Shown one piece after another: positions 19,925 through 33,818 of a DNA stretch of 40,477 nt; position 1 is the first letter of the stretch; each line of letters opens with the position of its first letter. The translations under genes and the position numbers were made by a program. Origin of the DNA: Candidatus Dadabacteria bacterium (GTDB taxonomy: Bacteria > Desulfobacterota_D > UBA1144 > Nemesobacterales > Nemesobacteraceae); contig JAPPFE010000039.1 of the NCBI GenBank assembly GCA_028823955.1, positions 1 to 40,477 of the forward strand, given 5' to 3'. The notes under the pieces are model-generated. The model worked only from the letters and a program-made list of their open reading frames with translations. It was not told the DNA's origin and made no database searches.

Positions 19925-20857
19925 ATGGGCAGACCCGAATTCGGAGTAATGCTGAGACAGCAAAAAATAGACTTTGAAGACATAAAGGCTGCGGCGCAGT
20001 TATGCGACTCGACCGGATATGATTCCGTTTGGTTCTACGATCATGTTCTAGGTCAGGGAATAATCGGTATCGACATCTATGAACCCTGGACTCTAATGTC
20101 AGCTCTCTCGACAGTAACGGAGAACGTTAAGCTCGGAACGATGGTGCTTTGCAACCCATTCAGGTACCCTCCCCTGCTCGCCAAGATGGCTTCAACGCTT
20201 GACGTGATAAGCAACGGACGCTTGGAATTCGCAATAGGAGCCGGGTGGTTTGAAGAGGAATTTCGCGCTTATGGATATCCCTTCCCCTCAACGGAAGAAA
20301 GAATAGAGATGCTGAGAGAAGCGGTCACGATACTCAAACTGATGTGGACGGATGAGACCGCCTCTTTTGCCGGCAAACATTACAAGGTGGAAAACGCGTT
20401 TTGCAACCCCAAGCCCGTTCAGCGTCCCAACATTCCAGTATGCATCGGAGGTTCCGGAGAAAGATTCCTCTTAAGAGCAGTGGCAGAACTCGCCGATGAA
20501 TGGAACTGTCCCGCGACAAGCGCAATTGAATTCGACCGTAAGCACTCGATACTCCGCAAGCACTGCGAGGAAGTCGGCAGAAACATAGAAGATATAACGA
20601 TATCTCAGCAGACAGTCTGCGTTCTGGTTGAGGACAGAAAAGATCTTCCCGAAAAACTCGAAAAGGCCCAGAGACGCTACGGATTCTTCGGAGATATAGA
20701 AAAACTCGGGATCGTGGGAACCCCGGAAGACTGCGTAGAAAAAATCAACACGGATCTGGAGAAGGGAATATCCAAATACACGATTTTCTTCTCCGACGTG
20801 ATGAACCCCAAGACCATAGAACTTTTCGGAAAGGAAGTAATACCCGAATTCAGATAA
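19925..20857 (+). CDS. Luciferase-like (LLM class) flavin/F420-dependent oxidoreductase
   Basis: The 310-residue protein has the bacterial luciferase-type TIM barrel: FGVMLRQQKIDFEDI, CDSTGYDSVWFYDHV, TENVKLGTMVLCNPFRYPP, LDVISNGRLEFAIGAGW, REAVTILKLMW and NIPVCIGGSGERFLLR. The family uses reduced FMN or F420; the cofactor cannot be decided from the sequence seen here, and no F420 biosynthesis gene is in the window. GGAGA precedes ATG 19925. It stands alone between divergent and downstream genes and has its own promoter candidate, so its substrate is unknown. Confidence 0.88.
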   Translation: MGRPEFGVMLRQQKIDFEDIKAAAQLCDSTGYDSVWFYDHVLGQGIIGIDIYEPWTLMSALSTVTENVKLGTMVLCNPFRYPPLLAKMASTLDVISNGRLEFAIGAGWFEEEFRAYGYPFPSTEERIEMLREAVTILKLMWTDETASFAGKHYKVENAFCNPKPVQRPNIPVCIGGSGERFLLRAVAELADEWNCPATSAIEFDRKHSILRKHCEEVGRNIEDITISQQTVCVLVEDRKDLPEKLEKAQRRYGFFGDIEKLGIVGTPEDCVEKINTDLEKGISKYTIFFSDVMNPKTIELFGKEVIPEFR

Positions 20858-20936
20858 AGACGGATTATTGCAGTTCTTCATTGATTTGCAACCACTCCTG
20901 CGCAATCTGCTTCTTTCGAACCTCCGCCATTGAAGT

Positions 20937-20963
20937 TTGAACTAAAAGTGAATAGTTTATAAT
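20937..20963 (+). promoter_or_regulatory. Promoter of the metal-handling cluster
   Basis: A perfect TATAAT (20958-20963) is preceded by TTGAAC (20937-20942) at a short 15-base spacing. Short or long spacings can mark activator-dependent promoters, but no dyad of the MerR type is visible here. The predicted start is near 20970, giving a very short leader to the ATG at 20979. Confidence 0.5.
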
Positions 20964-20978
20964 CAGGACGTGGACACT

Positions 20979-21320
20979 ATGAAGACAGTACTGCTACTGG
21001 CGACATGCATCGCATTGTTTCTTACCGGCGGCATGGCAAACGCCCTCTCCACATGTCCAATGAAGATGGACAAGGCTTCCGCCGAAATGCAGATGGACGC
21101 CGACATGGAAATGCCTTGCCATGAAACAAAAGATTCGGAAGATCGAAGCTCCGACCAGTGCGATGGCTGTGATTGCCAGCATTGCGTCCAGATAAACGCA
21201 CTGCTGGTTGAAGAGTTAAAAGATCATCATGGGGGAGATGCTGTCGGAATTCTTGCCGGTCAGCTCCTGTCCTCCCGCCAGATCAAAACCCATTTCCGAC
21301 CTCCAAAACACCTCTCCTGA
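20979..21320 (+). CDS. Exported Cys/Met/His-rich small protein (DUF2946/CopL-like)
   Basis: The 113-residue protein starts with a signal peptide (KTVLLLATCIALFLTGGMANA) and then carries metal-type motifs: CPMKMD, a Met-rich acidic segment MQMDADMEMPCHE and a Cys cluster QCDGCDCQHCVQ. It ends in FRPPKHLS, like many small periplasmic DUF2946/CopL-like proteins found beside copper or other metal genes. I infer soft-metal binding in the periplasm; the metal is not determined. ATG 20979 is chosen because the signal peptide begins there; a GTG nine bases upstream is possible. It is the first gene of a four-gene cluster. Confidence 0.75.
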   Translation: MKTVLLLATCIALFLTGGMANALSTCPMKMDKASAEMQMDADMEMPCHETKDSEDRSSDQCDGCDCQHCVQINALLVEELKDHHGGDAVGILAGQLLSSRQIKTHFRPPKHLS

Positions 21321-21328
21321 GCAAACCT

Positions 21329-21376
21329 GCGCGCGTCCGCGCGCTACAAACGGCTTCGCTTCGGCGTCGCCAAGCC
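21329..21376 (+). repeat. Two adjacent GC-rich hairpins between metal-cluster genes 1 and 2
   Basis: GCGCGCG and CGCGCGC (21329-21335, 21338-21344) form an inverted repeat around two bases. A second stem pairs GGCTT (21352-21356) with AAGCC (21372-21376) and has further inner pairing. There is no T tract, so this is more likely an mRNA processing or stability structure than a terminator. The composition is unlike the flanking sequence. Confidence 0.6.
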
Positions 21377-21399
21377 ATAATCGATACTCAGGAGGAAAC

Positions 21400-22047
21400 A
21401 TGAAATTAACGGTTTTCACTTTATGTTGCGTGATCCTGATGGGCTACGCCCCTCAGTCACTGTCTCGTCCGGTCTCATATCCGGGCGGCTGGACGGTCAT
21501 GCAGAAAAACGACAAGAACGCGCATTCTCTTCACGTTCATTATTCGCCGACGGCAAAGTATTCAATAGGATACAGAACCGAATACTGGCGCGAGGAGGAT
21601 TGGCAGTTCCACGGTGTGCAGATTAACTATCTGGTAAAGCGCCTCAACGCGCCGGCCTCGCAGGCAAACTTCTATCTTAAAGGCGGCCTTGGCACAGCCT
21701 ACGGTGATCTTGGAGTGCCCGACGGCGAACTCCAGCCCGCTGCCTTTGCCGATATCGCCCTTGACTGGGAAACTCGACGGTACTTTACGAGTTATGAGAA
21801 CCGCGTCTACTACGCCGAAGACATAGCGAAGTTCTTCAGGCAGAAAGCGCGGGTGGGAATCGCCCCTTATATCGGAGACTACGGCGATATCCACACCTGG
21901 CTCATGCTGCAAGTTGACCACATCACGGGGGAGAGAGATAACATCTCGTTTACGCCTTTTGTACGGTTTTTTAAGAACGAATATCTCGCTGAGGTCGGAA
22001 TCAGCGACAAAGGTGGGATTTTGTTCAATTTAATAATAAGATTTTAA
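21400..22047 (+). CDS. Putative outer-membrane beta-barrel protein of the metal cluster
   Basis: I do not recognise a named family with confidence. The 215-residue protein has a signal peptide (residues about 1-22), then alternating short amphipathic strands rich in aromatic and charged residues (YSIGYRTEYWREED, VQINYLV, ANFYLKGGLGTAYG, NISFTPFVRFFKNEYLAEVG) and ends with a terminal Phe in LIIRF, the usual beta-barrel C-terminal signal. AGGAGG sits directly upstream of ATG 21400, so this start is secure, although the frame stays open upstream. Gene order suggests it serves the same metal function as its neighbours, perhaps as an outer-membrane partner. That role is inference. Confidence 0.7.
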   Translation: MKLTVFTLCCVILMGYAPQSLSRPVSYPGGWTVMQKNDKNAHSLHVHYSPTAKYSIGYRTEYWREEDWQFHGVQINYLVKRLNAPASQANFYLKGGLGTAYGDLGVPDGELQPAAFADIALDWETRRYFTSYENRVYYAEDIAKFFRQKARVGIAPYIGDYGDIHTWLMLQVDHITGERDNISFTPFVRFFKNEYLAEVGISDKGGILFNLIIRF

Positions 22048-22057
22048 GGAGAAAACT

Positions 22058-22438
22058 ATGAAAATATCAATCAGAGTGATTTTTTTTATGACACTTTTTT
22101 TCGCGTTCCAAAGCCTTGCGCATGGAGAACACGAACATAACCATGAAGGTCAGGTGGTGGAGCCCTCTGCCGTTTCAAACAACATGGGAAACGTTGCATG
22201 TGAAGACACCATCAATATCAAGGTAACCGGGCTTGTATGCGATTTCTGCGCCCGTTCCCTGGAAAAAGTCTTCCTAAAACGCGGCGATGTTGGGGGAGTC
22301 AAGGTTGATCTCGGCAAAGGCTCCATAGTAGTCGCTATGAAACCCGGATTGACCATTGACGATGCAACGCTTACGAAGCTTATTGCGGACTCAGGATACA
22401 ACGTGAGCGCCATTCGCAGGGGGTGCGAACATGGATAA
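22058..22438 (+). CDS. Periplasmic heavy-metal-associated (HMA/MerP-like) protein
   Basis: The 126-residue protein has a signal peptide ending near residue 21 (FQSLA), a His-rich mature N-terminus HGEHEHNHEG and a single HMA domain with the metal-binding CxxC at Cys61 and Cys64 in VTGLVCDFCARSLEK. Two further cysteines, Cys48 and Cys123 near the C-terminus, may add to the site. MerP-type proteins carry soft metal ions to an inner-membrane carrier; the MerT/MerC-like gene overlaps this one by 8 bases, so the pair is probably functionally linked. The His tract and CxxC could bind copper, zinc or mercury; the sequence does not decide. Confidence 0.88.
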   Translation: MKISIRVIFFMTLFFAFQSLAHGEHEHNHEGQVVEPSAVSNNMGNVACEDTINIKVTGLVCDFCARSLEKVFLKRGDVGGVKVDLGKGSIVVAMKPGLTIDDATLTKLIADSGYNVSAIRRGCEHG

Positions 22439-22826
22439 GACAGATCCCGGCTATGGAGTGAAGCAAACGCTTCTCCCTTCGCTCAGTCTGCTTACGTCCG
22501 CTGGAACCCTGGTGTGTTGCGCCCTTCCCGCATTATTAGTGACGGTCGGCGCCGGCGCAGTCCTAGCGGGAATCGTAGGAACCGCACCCTGGCTGATTGC
22601 GTTGTCAGAATATAAGATATGGACGTTTGGAATCTCCGGCGCGATGCTTCTAATCGCCGGATTCGCGCTCTGGAGTTCAAGAAACGCCCCCTGCCCGATT
22701 GACCCGGCGCAGGCAATGGCGTGCGCCAGATTACGAAAGACAAGCAACTGGATATACCTGTTATCCGTGCTCCTATGGTGCGTGGGGTTTTTCTTCGCTT
22801 TTATCGCCGCGAGAGTTTTTTACTGA
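22431..22826 (+). CDS. MerT/MerC-like inner-membrane metal carrier
   Basis: The 131-residue protein has about four membrane segments (about residues 15-35, 38-58, 63-82 and 105-128). The first carries an adjacent cysteine pair, Cys29-Cys30 in TLVCCALPALLV, as in MerT/MerC, where the pair takes metal from the periplasmic side. A second Cys pair, Cys88 and Cys98 in the PCPIDPAQAMAC loop, matches the cytosolic pair of MerT in position. Four segments fit MerC better than MerT (three). No mercuric reductase (MerA) is in the window, so mercury as the substrate is not assured. Confidence 0.82.
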   Translation: MDKTDPGYGVKQTLLPSLSLLTSAGTLVCCALPALLVTVGAGAVLAGIVGTAPWLIALSEYKIWTFGISGAMLLIAGFALWSSRNAPCPIDPAQAMACARLRKTSNWIYLLSVLLWCVGFFFAFIAARVFY

Positions 22827-22847
22827 TTTCTTTCGGGTCACAAGATT

Positions 22848-22879
22848 AGGGAAATGTCGGGGAAAACCGGCGTTTCCCT
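22848..22879. terminator. 13-bp stem-loop between convergent genes
   Basis: AGGGAAATGTCGG pairs along its whole length with CCGGCGTTTCCCT (two G-U pairs) around loop GGAAAA. It lies between the end of the metal cluster (+) and the GldC-like gene (-), where a bidirectional terminator would be expected. No T tract follows on either strand, so it may act with Rho or protect 3' ends. Confidence 0.55.
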
Positions 22880-22905
22880 GGCCTGCAGGGGCCTAGGGAT
22901 GTTGG

Positions 22906-23256
22906 TCAGGAATTCTTCTGGCCTCCGAAAGACTCAAGGACCATCTCGGCGAACTCGCCCGCGAATTCTCTCATTCTGTTTGATATCTGCTTCTCGGAGG
23001 TAGCCTTTTCATATGTGTCGGCCATTTTCATCATCGTATAGTAAAAATGATAGTTCATCTCCCCCACTTCCATTTTCTTTGTCCAAAGATCTACTACAAG
23101 AGATTCCTTTTTCTCGGCATCCCACATGGAGAGAAAAGCCGCCTCGCAGCGCTTCTCTCCCGGTTCCTCAGATTGGGAAGCCTCCCAGAAAAGCCCCTCG
23201 GGAACATTGTCGTCCCCCAGCACTACCTTAAGCTTGATTTCGGCGTTTTTGGACAT
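22906..23256 (-). CDS. GldC-like protein
   Basis: The 116-residue protein from ATG 23256 matches the GldC family, named in Bacteroidetes gliding motility but present in other phyla: EIKLKVVLGDDNVPEGLFWEAS, AAFLSMWDAEKKESLVVDLW, MNYHFYYTMMKMADTYEKAT and a C-terminal helix. AAGGAG lies about nine bases upstream of ATG 23256; an upstream extension of 16 residues is therefore rejected. It has no signal peptide. Other gld genes are absent, so motility is not implied; the family function outside Bacteroidetes is unknown. A terminator separates it from the act operon. Confidence 0.8.
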   Translation of the reverse strand: MSKNAEIKLKVVLGDDNVPEGLFWEASQSEEPGEKRCEAAFLSMWDAEKKESLVVDLWTKKMEVGEMNYHFYYTMMKMADTYEKATSEKQISNRMREFAGEFAEMVLESFGGQKNS

Positions 23257-31635: not shown

Positions 31636-32094
31636 CTACAAACCCAGTTCTCTTACCTTCTCGGTTACCTCTTCAGCGTGAGACGAGGTCTTTACCTTTT
31701 TCCAGATATGGACTATCCTGCCACCTTTTTCTATGAGGAAAGTGACCCTGCGGGCGGTATCGAACTTGCTTTTTATCCCGTACAGATCCACTATCTCCCT
31801 GCTTTTATCGCTCAGCAGCGGGAAGTTGAGTGAGAACTTGTTTCTGAAGTTCTCATGGGACTTGACCCCGTCTGTGCTTACTCCCAGGACCTGCACTCCA
31901 AGAGATATAAGTTCCTCCTCCGCATCGCGAAGCGAGCAGGCCTCCTTGGTACAGCCCGGAGTGTTGTCTCTGGGATAGAAGTAAAGAGCTACGGTCCCTT
32001 TCGAATAGAAGTCGCTCAGTCTTACCTTCTCCGCCCCATAGGTTTCGGCTTCAAAATCAGGGGCCTGGCTCCCTACCTCAAGATTTTCTCCCAT
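31636..32094 (-). CDS. bcp: Peroxiredoxin, BCP/PrxQ type (copy 1)
   Basis: BCP reduces hydrogen and organic peroxides using thioredoxin. The active site FYPRDNTPGCTKEACSLRD holds the peroxidatic Cys and a second Cys five residues on, as in E. coli BCP. From ATG 32094, with AGGAGG upstream, the protein is 152 residues. A close paralogue lies at 32787-33251; a 98-base block (31809-31906) is 96% identical between the two while flanking parts differ more, which suggests gene conversion. It sits between the MIP18-type gene and bioD. Confidence 0.95.
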   Translation of the reverse strand: MGENLEVGSQAPDFEAETYGAEKVRLSDFYSKGTVALYFYPRDNTPGCTKEACSLRDAEEELISLGVQVLGVSTDGVKSHENFRNKFSLNFPLLSDKSREIVDLYGIKSKFDTARRVTFLIEKGGRIVHIWKKVKTSSHAEEVTEKVRELGL

Positions 32095-32132
32095 TTCCAA
32101 CCTCCTTGGTCACGGCGGCAAAGCACGTGGAG

Positions 32133-32786: not shown

Positions 32787-33251
32787 TTAAAGACCTAGTT
32801 CTTTTACCTTGCTGAGTATCTCTTCGGCATGGGACGAGGGTTTAACTTTGCGCCAAATATACGCTATCCTGCCACCTTTTTCTATAAGGAAGGTGGTCCT
32901 GCGAGCAACGAAGGGGATGAGCCTCCACCTTGCCCCGTACAGATCCACTATCTTCCTTCTTCTGTCGCTCAGCAGCGGGAAGTTGAGTGAGAACTTGTCT
33001 CTGAACTTCTCATGGGACTTGACCCCGTCTGTGCTTACCCCCAGGATCTGCACTCCAAGAGATGCAAGTTCCCGCTCCGCATCGCGAAGCGAACAAGCCT
33101 CCCAAACACAGCCCGTACTGTTGTCCCTAGGATAAAAGTAAAGCACCACGGTCCCTTTAGAATAAAAGTCGCTCAACCTTACCTTCTCCGCTCCGTAGGT
33201 TTCGGTTTCAAAATCAGGAGCCTGGCTCCCTATCTCAAGATTCCTTCCCAT
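32787..33251 (-). CDS. Peroxiredoxin, BCP/PrxQ type (copy 2, altered active-site neighbourhood)
   Basis: This 154-residue paralogue of the bcp at 31636-32094 keeps both cysteines, but the motif reads NSTGCVWEAC where copy 1 reads NTPGCTKEAC. The Thr of the PxxxTxxC signature is Ser, which the family allows; the following Pro is Thr, and Thr after the Cys is Val. Activity toward peroxides is plausible but altered. AAGGAA lies upstream of ATG 33251. The two copies are in the same orientation 1157 bases apart, so they arose by tandem duplication. Confidence 0.9.
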   Translation of the reverse strand: MGRNLEIGSQAPDFETETYGAEKVRLSDFYSKGTVVLYFYPRDNSTGCVWEACSLRDAERELASLGVQILGVSTDGVKSHEKFRDKFSLNFPLLSDRRRKIVDLYGARWRLIPFVARRTTFLIEKGGRIAYIWRKVKPSSHAEEILSKVKELGL

Positions 33252-33305: not shown

Positions 33306-33818
33306 CTATCCTATTGATTTTATCGCATCAAGCGCCGCATTGTAATCTGGCTCGTTCACTATGTCTCCAACATACTCAACGTGCTCAATTACGTTATCAC
33401 GACCCACAACGAAAATCGCGCGGGCAAGGAGCCTGTTCTCCTTTATAAGCACCCCGTAGGCCTCGCCGAAAGAAGCGTACTGGTAATCTGACGCCGTCTT
33501 TACCCTCTCCACTTCTGCGGCCGCACAGTAGCGGCTCTGCGCGAAAGGAAGATCCATGCTCACCGTTATTATCTGGACCGAATCAGAAAACGCCGCCGCT
33601 TCCTCGTTGAACCTTCTGATCTGGACATCGCAGACCGGCGTGTCTACCGAAACCACGACGTTAAAAACCTTCACGTCATCGCCGAAATTCTCAAGGCTTA
33701 CCTCGCTTCCCAAGGTTTCCACGCACCTGAAATCAGGAGCCTGGTCGCCTTTTTTCAGTTCAGGACCGATAAGGGTAATCGGATTGCCTTTCATCTTTAC
33801 CGCATCATCTCTTTCCAT
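33306..33818 (-). CDS. tpx: Thiol peroxidase Tpx
   Basis: Tpx is a thioredoxin-dependent atypical 2-Cys peroxiredoxin. It shows SVDTPVCDVQIRRFNEEA with the peroxidatic Cys, the resolving Cys in SRYCAAAEV, and FEAYGVLIKE-like FGEAYGVLIKENRLLARAIFVV. The length of 170 residues is typical. GAGG lies ten bases before ATG 33818. It lies 54 bases upstream of bcp copy 2, making a cluster of three peroxidases. Confidence 0.96.
   Translation of the reverse strand: MERDDAVKMKGNPITLIGPELKKGDQAPDFRCVETLGSEVSLENFGDDVKVFNVVVSVDTPVCDVQIRRFNEEAAAFSDSVQIITVSMDLPFAQSRYCAAAEVERVKTASDYQYASFGEAYGVLIKENRLLARAIFVVGRDNVIEHVEYVGDIVNEPDYNAALDAIKSIG

Follow-up and report, generated by a model that had tools for sequence, protein, structure and literature searches.

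The stretch of DNA analysed here, referred to as the window, comprises 40,477 nucleotides (nt) of the forward strand of contig JAPPFE010000039.1 (assembly GCA_028823955.1) from a Candidatus Dadabacteria bacterium whose genome of 1.68 Mb comprises 55 contigs. It contains four genes, here termed g1 to g4, which encode a small Cys-rich protein, a putative beta-barrel, a protein with a probable HMA domain and a MerT-like carrier (Table 1). All four run in the same direction, with gaps of 79 nt between g1 and g2 and 10 nt between g2 and g3 and an overlap of 8 nt between g3 and g4 (22431-22438), a spacing suggestive of one transcription unit. An earlier note, made from the window alone, had given these four open reading frames (ORFs), their positions and the 8-base overlap correctly, and had read them as a metal-handling unit whose parts would sit in the outer membrane, the periplasm and the inner membrane. 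That unit is found here to be conserved among bacteria, the description of the carrier being amended below, and its first gene appears to be more than a metal-binding protein. Judged from sequence, the cluster is probably a conserved envelope metal operon under nascent-chain control.

A genome scan with one genome per species confirmed 123 relatives, and the best 80 of the 123 barrel loci were analysed. In 57 of these 80 loci a small Cys leader ending in Pro-Pro (PP) is positioned 5' of the barrel gene, as is g1 in the window. The g1 product has seven Cys, six of them at residues 26, 47, 61, 64, 66 and 69 and one (Cys 10) inside the signal, and PP occupies residues 108-109 of 113. Signal peptides were judged by eye and with a simple hydrophobicity test, by which 58 of 60 leaders have a hydrophobic start; none was seen in those called at L100 and L102. 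The distance from the last Cys to the final PP was confined to 38-46 residues in 57 of 57 PP leaders (mean 41.6, standard deviation 2.6), the distance from the upstream Cys to the Cys cluster was 17.0 residues (standard deviation 6.1), and PP was located 2-6 residues from the leader end. Alignments were made of 56 of 60 leaders, 61 of 67 carriers and 61 of 77 barrels, each together with the window sequence; the resulting 57 leaders had a mean column identity of 20%, with PP kept and three Cys columns at least 90% conserved. PP within the last 12 residues was rare among other neighbour genes (11 of 519). The Pro codons at this position vary among loci outside the genus, and PP is therefore conserved as a peptide, which rules out its retention solely as a CCUCC anti-Shine-Dalgarno sequence. 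PP-ending leaders were found in Dadabacteria, in Pseudomonadota and in a few metagenome-assembled genomes (MAGs) without phylum label; the seven loci that bear other phylum labels have none.

The CopL family model (CopL_fam, NCBIfam NF033807) aligned with nearly the full length of g1 at 17 bits against a cut-off of 40 (E 0.0071), and matched 25 of the 57 leaders at E 0.1 or better, the best at 1.8e-8. The DUF2946/CruR model (PF11162) gave no match for g1 and weak matches for 10 of the 57 leaders (best 0.0028). By its anatomy g1 is probably a regulatory leader of the CutF/CopL/CruR type, and as such it is likely to be the operon's regulator. The statement in the earlier note that no metal-sensing regulator lies nearby is not supported and is probably wrong, because in anatomy g1 corresponds to a metal sensor that acts in cis through its nascent chain.

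A hairpin at the g1-g2 junction connects the end of this leader to the start of the next gene. In the window the Shine-Dalgarno (SD) sequence of the barrel gene, CTCAGGAGG, pairs with TCTCCTGAG, a segment that takes in the g1 stop codon. Counterpart arms were identified in family f8 (CCCCCAATTGTTTAA with TTAAATAATTGGAGG), in G022 (ACCTCCTCTTG with CAAGAGGAGGT) and in an alphaproteobacterial MAG in which the leader stop is TAG (TATCCTAG with CTAGGATA). The hairpin was tested in 58 loci, made up of 56 PP leaders together with L080 and L134; L138 has no recognised SD and was left out. The mean probability of pairing between the SD and the g1 end was 0.79 versus 0.39 in dinucleotide shuffles, with 33 of the 58 loci standing out from their shuffles at the 5% level and 43 at the 10% level. 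Pairing probabilities above 0.9 were obtained for 34 of 58 leaders, counted from rounded values, versus 1 of 54 control junctions, for which gene starts were chosen by script and only SDs of at least 4 nt were used. In minimum-free-energy folds at least four SD pairs were made to the g1 end in 53 of 58 loci; in 47 the arm lay within a span from 27 nt upstream to 15 nt downstream of the stop-codon start, and in 37 it extended across the stop codon. The latter two counts are preferred, since several Henriciella-type loci had only 4-5 pairs located far upstream of the stop. Among 12 aligned leaders five pairs had changes on both sides, a number that was as high in 2 of 500 shuffles. No Rfam family matched within 20700-23000 at E 1.

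Table 1. Features of the g1-g4 operon and related leaders (window coordinates unless a locus is named)
Feature	Position	Strand	Description and basis
Possible -10 box TATAAT	20958..20963	+	just 5' of g1; suggested by sequence reading
g1	20979..21320	+	113-aa apparent Sec-exported Cys leader with the C-terminus ...FRPPKHLS; candidate nascent-chain metal sensor of the CutF/CopL kind
Two Pro codons CCT CCA	21300..21305	+	proposed arrest point; PP kept in 12/12 genus genomes with the operon
5' arm of SD hairpin, TCTCCTGAG	21313..21321	+	includes g1 stop codon 21318-21320; RNA folds, pair counts
Inner hairpin 1, GCGCGCGTCCGCGCGC	21329..21344	+	3 pairs changed on both sides, 12 aligned leaders
Inner hairpin 2, TTCG loop	21352..21371	+	2 pairs changed on both sides, 12 aligned leaders
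3' arm, CTCAGGAGG	21387..21395	+	barrel gene Shine-Dalgarno; RNA folds, pair counts
g2	21400..22047	+	215-aa outer-membrane barrel, 12 predicted strands, RPVSYPGGW start after signal; unnamed family
g3	22058..22438	+	periplasmic, His-rich N-terminus and probable HMA domain (GLVCDFCA)
g4	22431..22826	+	131-aa MerT-like inner-membrane carrier; C29-C30, C88/C98
RGPP leaders, L149 (own genome, contig C15)	5695-5985 and 3674-4114	-	Cys motif and RGPP
RGPP leaders, L148	4011-4340 and 6161-6445		Cys motif and RGPP
RGPP leader, L150	9128-9418	-	Cys motif and RGPP

The order of the genes was found to be widely maintained. Within the genus the barrel is present in 12 of 13 genomes, that of the window included, G007 being the only one without barrel and carrier. 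All 12 genomes have g1, g2 and g3 side by side. The next gene is g4 in 11 of them, in one of which it is cut short by a contig end, and in the twelfth (G009) the contig ends before the g4 position. Among 60 relatives the barrel occurred in 18 and the carrier in 20, and all 18 barrel genomes also had the carrier; at class level 18 of 57 genomes had the barrel. The labels of the 80 loci are mostly Pseudomonadota (Alpha, Beta, Gamma) and Dadabacteria, with single loci from Omnitrophota, Thermodesulfobacteriota, Campylobacterales, Marinamargulisbacteria and UBP17 and two from Akkermansiaceae. By profile search HMA and carrier genes stand directly 3' of the barrel gene in 66 of the 80 loci, and barrel, HMA protein and carrier therefore constitute a conserved unit. 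The earlier note had proposed looking for the same order in other genomes and would have given up the idea of a joint system had the genes mostly occurred apart; they are together in the great majority of barrel loci. The remaining 14 loci consist of 2 at a contig edge, 8 having HMA without carrier (L093, L096, L098, L140, L080, L085, L089 and L108) and 4 having a carrier without detected HMA, and among the last group a looser HMA pattern revealed HMA-type ORFs in L116, L117 and L122 and none in L115. The barrel gave no match on plasmids at E 0.01, and of 24 pattern matches on viral contigs none was confirmed.

The note's observation that neither MerA nor a copper pump is encoded nearby holds well beyond the window, as the ORFs called at the 80 loci contain no motif of P-type ATPase, MerA or multicopper oxidase, and MerA exceeded the cut-off in 0 of 19 genomes; related oxidoreductases gave weaker matches both in these genomes and in control genomes. 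Two variant arrangements were also encountered. In G019 (L048 5119-7274) a PP-ending Cys leader is followed by an HMA protein, a PF13557 barrel and a MerT-like carrier; this leader ends in HPPKVLL and a stop codon, and its end is folded together with the SD of the HMA gene into a long stem. In G014 (L049 6362-9780) a MerT-like carrier comes after a MerR-family gene and is followed by a PF13557 barrel and two HMA proteins, again without MerA.

A different type of regulator is found at many of the loci that lack the leader. In a single profile run on all 80 loci, which reproduced an earlier count made partly by eye, a CsoR-type gene was located beside the operon in 11 loci, of which 8 belong to the 21 leaderless loci (those without a PP leader), 2 to the 57 with a PP leader and 1 is cut off upstream (Fisher P 0.0003 for leaderless versus leader loci, kinship among loci not being corrected for). 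All 11 CsoR-type genes encode Cys...His-x3-Cys, which we take to be the copper-sensor ligand pattern, and CsoR repressors let go of DNA on copper. The presence of CsoR at leaderless loci thus supports both a control role of the leader and copper as the metal. In four of the eight loci with HMA but no carrier a CsoR-type gene follows the HMA gene.

The three proteins encoded downstream differ in how closely they resemble described families. The barrel that the earlier note had suspected in g2 is borne out by a model of 12 strands (mean predicted local distance difference test score, pLDDT, 89); its view that the individual families are known does not extend to this protein, which has no Pfam or NCBIfam match. 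The PagL lipid A deacylase model (PF09411) gave no match for g2 and weak matches for 8 of 62 relatives (best 1.3e-4). Structural neighbours of g2 in the PDB are diverse 12-strand barrels, among them the copper barrel PcoB (Z 11.6, versus 17.6 for the best), and no function was taken from them because many unrelated barrels are included. The g3 protein matched the HMA domain (PF00403) at 20.7 bits (E 5e-4), under the Pfam cut-off of 24.8, with CDFC present; CopZ models gave 1e-6, far under their cut-offs, and identity to MerP of plasmid R100 was 33% over 72 columns. For g4 a comparison with R100 MerT by hhalign gave a probability of 65 and E 6e-5, as a single comparison, while no alignment with R100 MerC was obtained; of the MerT/MerC-like character assigned to g4 in the note only the MerT part stands, and the four helices mentioned there are three long ones in a model with a mean pLDDT of only 71.5. 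Residues C29 and C30 in helix 1 and C88 and C98 in the next loop are invariant in 62 sequences, a layout that we assume to be that of MerT. The Pfam MerT model (PF02411) did not match g4 and gave weak matches for 18 of 62 relatives (best 1.9e-4), and a PDB sequence search with g4 gave no match. By curated cut-offs g1 is not a member of CopL or DUF2946 and g4 is not a member of Pfam MerT, and it is in layout that they resemble these families.

We lean, by a modest degree, towards a translationally controlled operon for the passage of a soft metal across the envelope, copper being the likeliest, with an arrest in g1 that opens the SD hairpin. The g1 product would then be a leader peptide made for sensing, not for keeping. 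As the nascent chain is exported its Cys cluster would meet the metal, and the dwell of the ribosome at the C-terminal PP would change. The front of a ribosome held at PP would reach the first bases of the hairpin 5' arm, and a ribosome at the stop codon would cover the arm; by loosening the hairpin a held ribosome could free the barrel SD, so that the barrel, the HMA protein and the MerT-like carrier are made. Arrest would in this manner turn the operon on, and the metal may either prolong the arrest, as proposed for CutF, or end it, as with CruR, both of which fit the sequence. The products would form a relay with the barrel in the outer membrane, the HMA protein in the periplasm and the carrier in the inner membrane, where the HMA domain may hand metal to the carrier in the way that MerP passes Hg(II) to MerT. 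The arrest, the control by metal and its sense, copper as the favoured metal and the inward flow are what we infer from these arrangements. A more specific version, which is possible and put forward tentatively, is a three-part copper route composed of a new 12-strand barrel family, an HMA relay and a MerT-type carrier for copper, under a leader-arrest switch in which the stop codon doubles as a lock and which CsoR replaces in some lineages.

Several observations weigh against this interpretation. Of 78 loci with room upstream 21 have no PP leader, and in G018, G022, L080, L109 and L134 the Cys leader lacks PP. The Arg preceding PP, a residue that matters in RAPP arrest peptides, is replaced by Q or H in part of the genus and by other residues in many other loci. 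The Pro-rich tail of CutF alone gave no arrest in E. coli fusions (PMC9973294). In the 12-leader alignment the SD stem has changes on one side only, all two-sided changes being confined to the inner hairpins, and most Henriciella-type loci have PPPP and little or no hairpin. The statistics treat related loci as independent, and many are close relatives (eight of the genus, several Hyphomonas and Henriciella). The unit itself is incomplete in the eight loci where HMA is present and the carrier absent. Outside the genus, the operon adjoins a znuA/zur zinc-uptake cluster in 6 of 6 Dadabacterial genomes that carry it.

The last of these points can be read as the operon being an accessory to ZnuABC zinc uptake with a leader that senses zinc. 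The zinc cluster (its families Pfam-checked in one of the six genomes, with znuA and the start of zur read in G022) is flanked by the operon on opposite sides in families f6 and f8, the gammaproteobacterial loci L099 and L103 show the same adjacency, and a ZnuA-type cluster lies about 20 kb away in several genus assemblies. Control of the operon by Zur was rejected, as a Zur-like palindrome was seen by eye at znuA/zur and none 5' of the operon; the associated CsoR genes carry ligands presumed to be of copper type. CutF-like and CopL-like Cys leaders moreover mostly adjoin copper genes (PMC9973294), and taken together we find the zinc reading quite unlikely. Plain translational coupling, in which g1 would be an ordinary periplasmic Cys/Met-rich metal binder and barrel translation would need ribosomes at the g1 stop without any arrest or sensing, would suit both the 37 of 58 loci where the hairpin arm spans the stop codon and the loci L080 and L134, whose Cys leaders have the hairpin without PP. 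It gives no role to a PP kept 2-6 residues from the end or to the narrow Cys-to-PP spacing, both maintained at about 20% identity, and we therefore regard it as unlikely.

The direction of flow and the nature of the metal may also be conceived differently. A relay that runs outward or stores metal and is induced by excess would agree with CsoR leaving DNA on copper, which would turn the operon on under excess, and with the copper ATPase model TIGR01511 having no match in the 8 Dadabacterial genomes searched that carry the operon. G007, without the operon, had no match either, and G013, likewise without it, had fragments. Among 50 other genomes with the operon, however, 28 had TIGR01511 over the cut-off and 17 had no match, so that the operon is not in general a replacement for CopA; in addition MerT carriers, studied for mercury, are known as importers, and release or detoxification is in our opinion doubtful. 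Mercury uptake, or a remnant of mercury resistance, is brought to mind by the MerT-like carrier and the MerP-like HMA protein, by the related carrier after a MerR-family gene in G014 and by a MerR-type gene adjoining the operon in L107. With MerA over the cut-off in none of the 19 genomes, an import of Hg(II) without the reductase would do harm, which makes mercury highly improbable. The preferred reading remains the arrest-controlled operon for a soft metal, with copper favoured.

Further leaders of a related layout were encountered on a probable zinc-uptake cluster. In these small exported proteins a distance of exactly 45 residues separates EHEHEG..CE[IV]C from the C-terminal RGPP (5 of 5 cases, Table 1), and the genes precede a large coiled-coil/porin-like gene and a ZnuA-type gene. 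They have the layout of CruR, with a stronger arrest motif. In L099, L103 and the Dadabacterial loci L042-L047 the operon is adjoined by znuA/zur/znuC/znuB and also by related porins, and a transfer of this whole island between groups is possible. In the window the operon is flanked by an LLM-family oxidoreductase gene on one side and a GldC-like gene on the other, with alternative complex III genes close by, and in G013 of the same family an empty site is found (L062), where the oxidoreductase gene is directly followed by the GldC-like gene. The region of the possible -10 box is partially conserved across 12 genus genomes. Elsewhere in the window three peroxiredoxin genes of the AhpC/Redoxin family are gathered within about 2.2 kb (31636-32100, 32787-33251 and 33306-33818 (-)).

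To our knowledge, the entry of copper into Gram-negative bacteria is poorly known. As a widespread set of genes that lacks MerA, the barrel-HMA-MerT unit offers a concrete candidate for a copper entry route, and named isolates such as Hyphomonas atlantica (L114) are among those carrying it. If the proposed mechanism is true, metal sensing by arrest peptides extends to a new set of target genes, and its signature is searchable as a Cys cluster followed after about 40 residues by PP, with pairing between the end of the leader and the SD of the following gene.

The anatomy of g1 is much like that of CutF in the cutFOG operon of Rhodobacter capsulatus (PMC9973294). CutF too is a small exported Cys protein with a C-terminal Pro motif at about 45 residues after the Cys (45 in CutF), a short intergenic region and a hairpin over the SD of the next gene, and leader, export, Cys and Pro motif jointly open that stem-loop. 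The shielding of the next SD by a stem-loop is shared by the window and most relatives, though not by most Henriciella-type loci. The gene following CutF encodes a multicopper oxidase, whereas here barrel, HMA and MerT-like genes follow, and unlike in CutF the hairpin arm takes in the last codons of the leader, often with the stop codon; 'MerT' is absent from that paper on CutF-like proteins. CruR of Bordetella pertussis (DUF2946; PMC9426467) resembles g1 as a leader ORF at the head of a metal operon, with a Cys motif and a C-terminal PP at a fixed distance. In CruR 45 residues separate CXXC from RAPP and the addition of five made the copper response strongly weaker, and arrest occurs with the two Pro codons of RAPP in the P and A sites (PMC12992588). 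CruR differs in having RAPP, an intergenic region of 162 nt, Rho termination and switching off by copper (PMC9426467), compared with FRPP, 79 nt and an SD hairpin in the window.

The genes g3 and g4 correspond to MerP and MerT of plasmid R100 in having CC in helix 1 of the carrier, a Cys pair in the next loop and a probable HMA partner. Unlike mer operons the window has neither MerA nor MerR, and the g4 loop has C-x9-C in a protein without PF02411 match. Plasmid-borne MerT/HMA genes without MerA, for example in Vibrio diabolicus and Variovorax, are similar in that a MerT-like carrier is joined or adjacent to HMA. In V. diabolicus, however, they adjoin a GDCCVxC protein, and no alignment with the present barrel family was obtained for the protein that follows; in Variovorax only an HMA-type gene and a carrier are together. 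No paper joining MerT with a leader of this kind, and none on 'MerT-like' together with 'copper', was found in a literature search that was thin in subscription journals and preprints. The closest known systems are CutF-like leaders on the one hand and the mer transport genes on the other.

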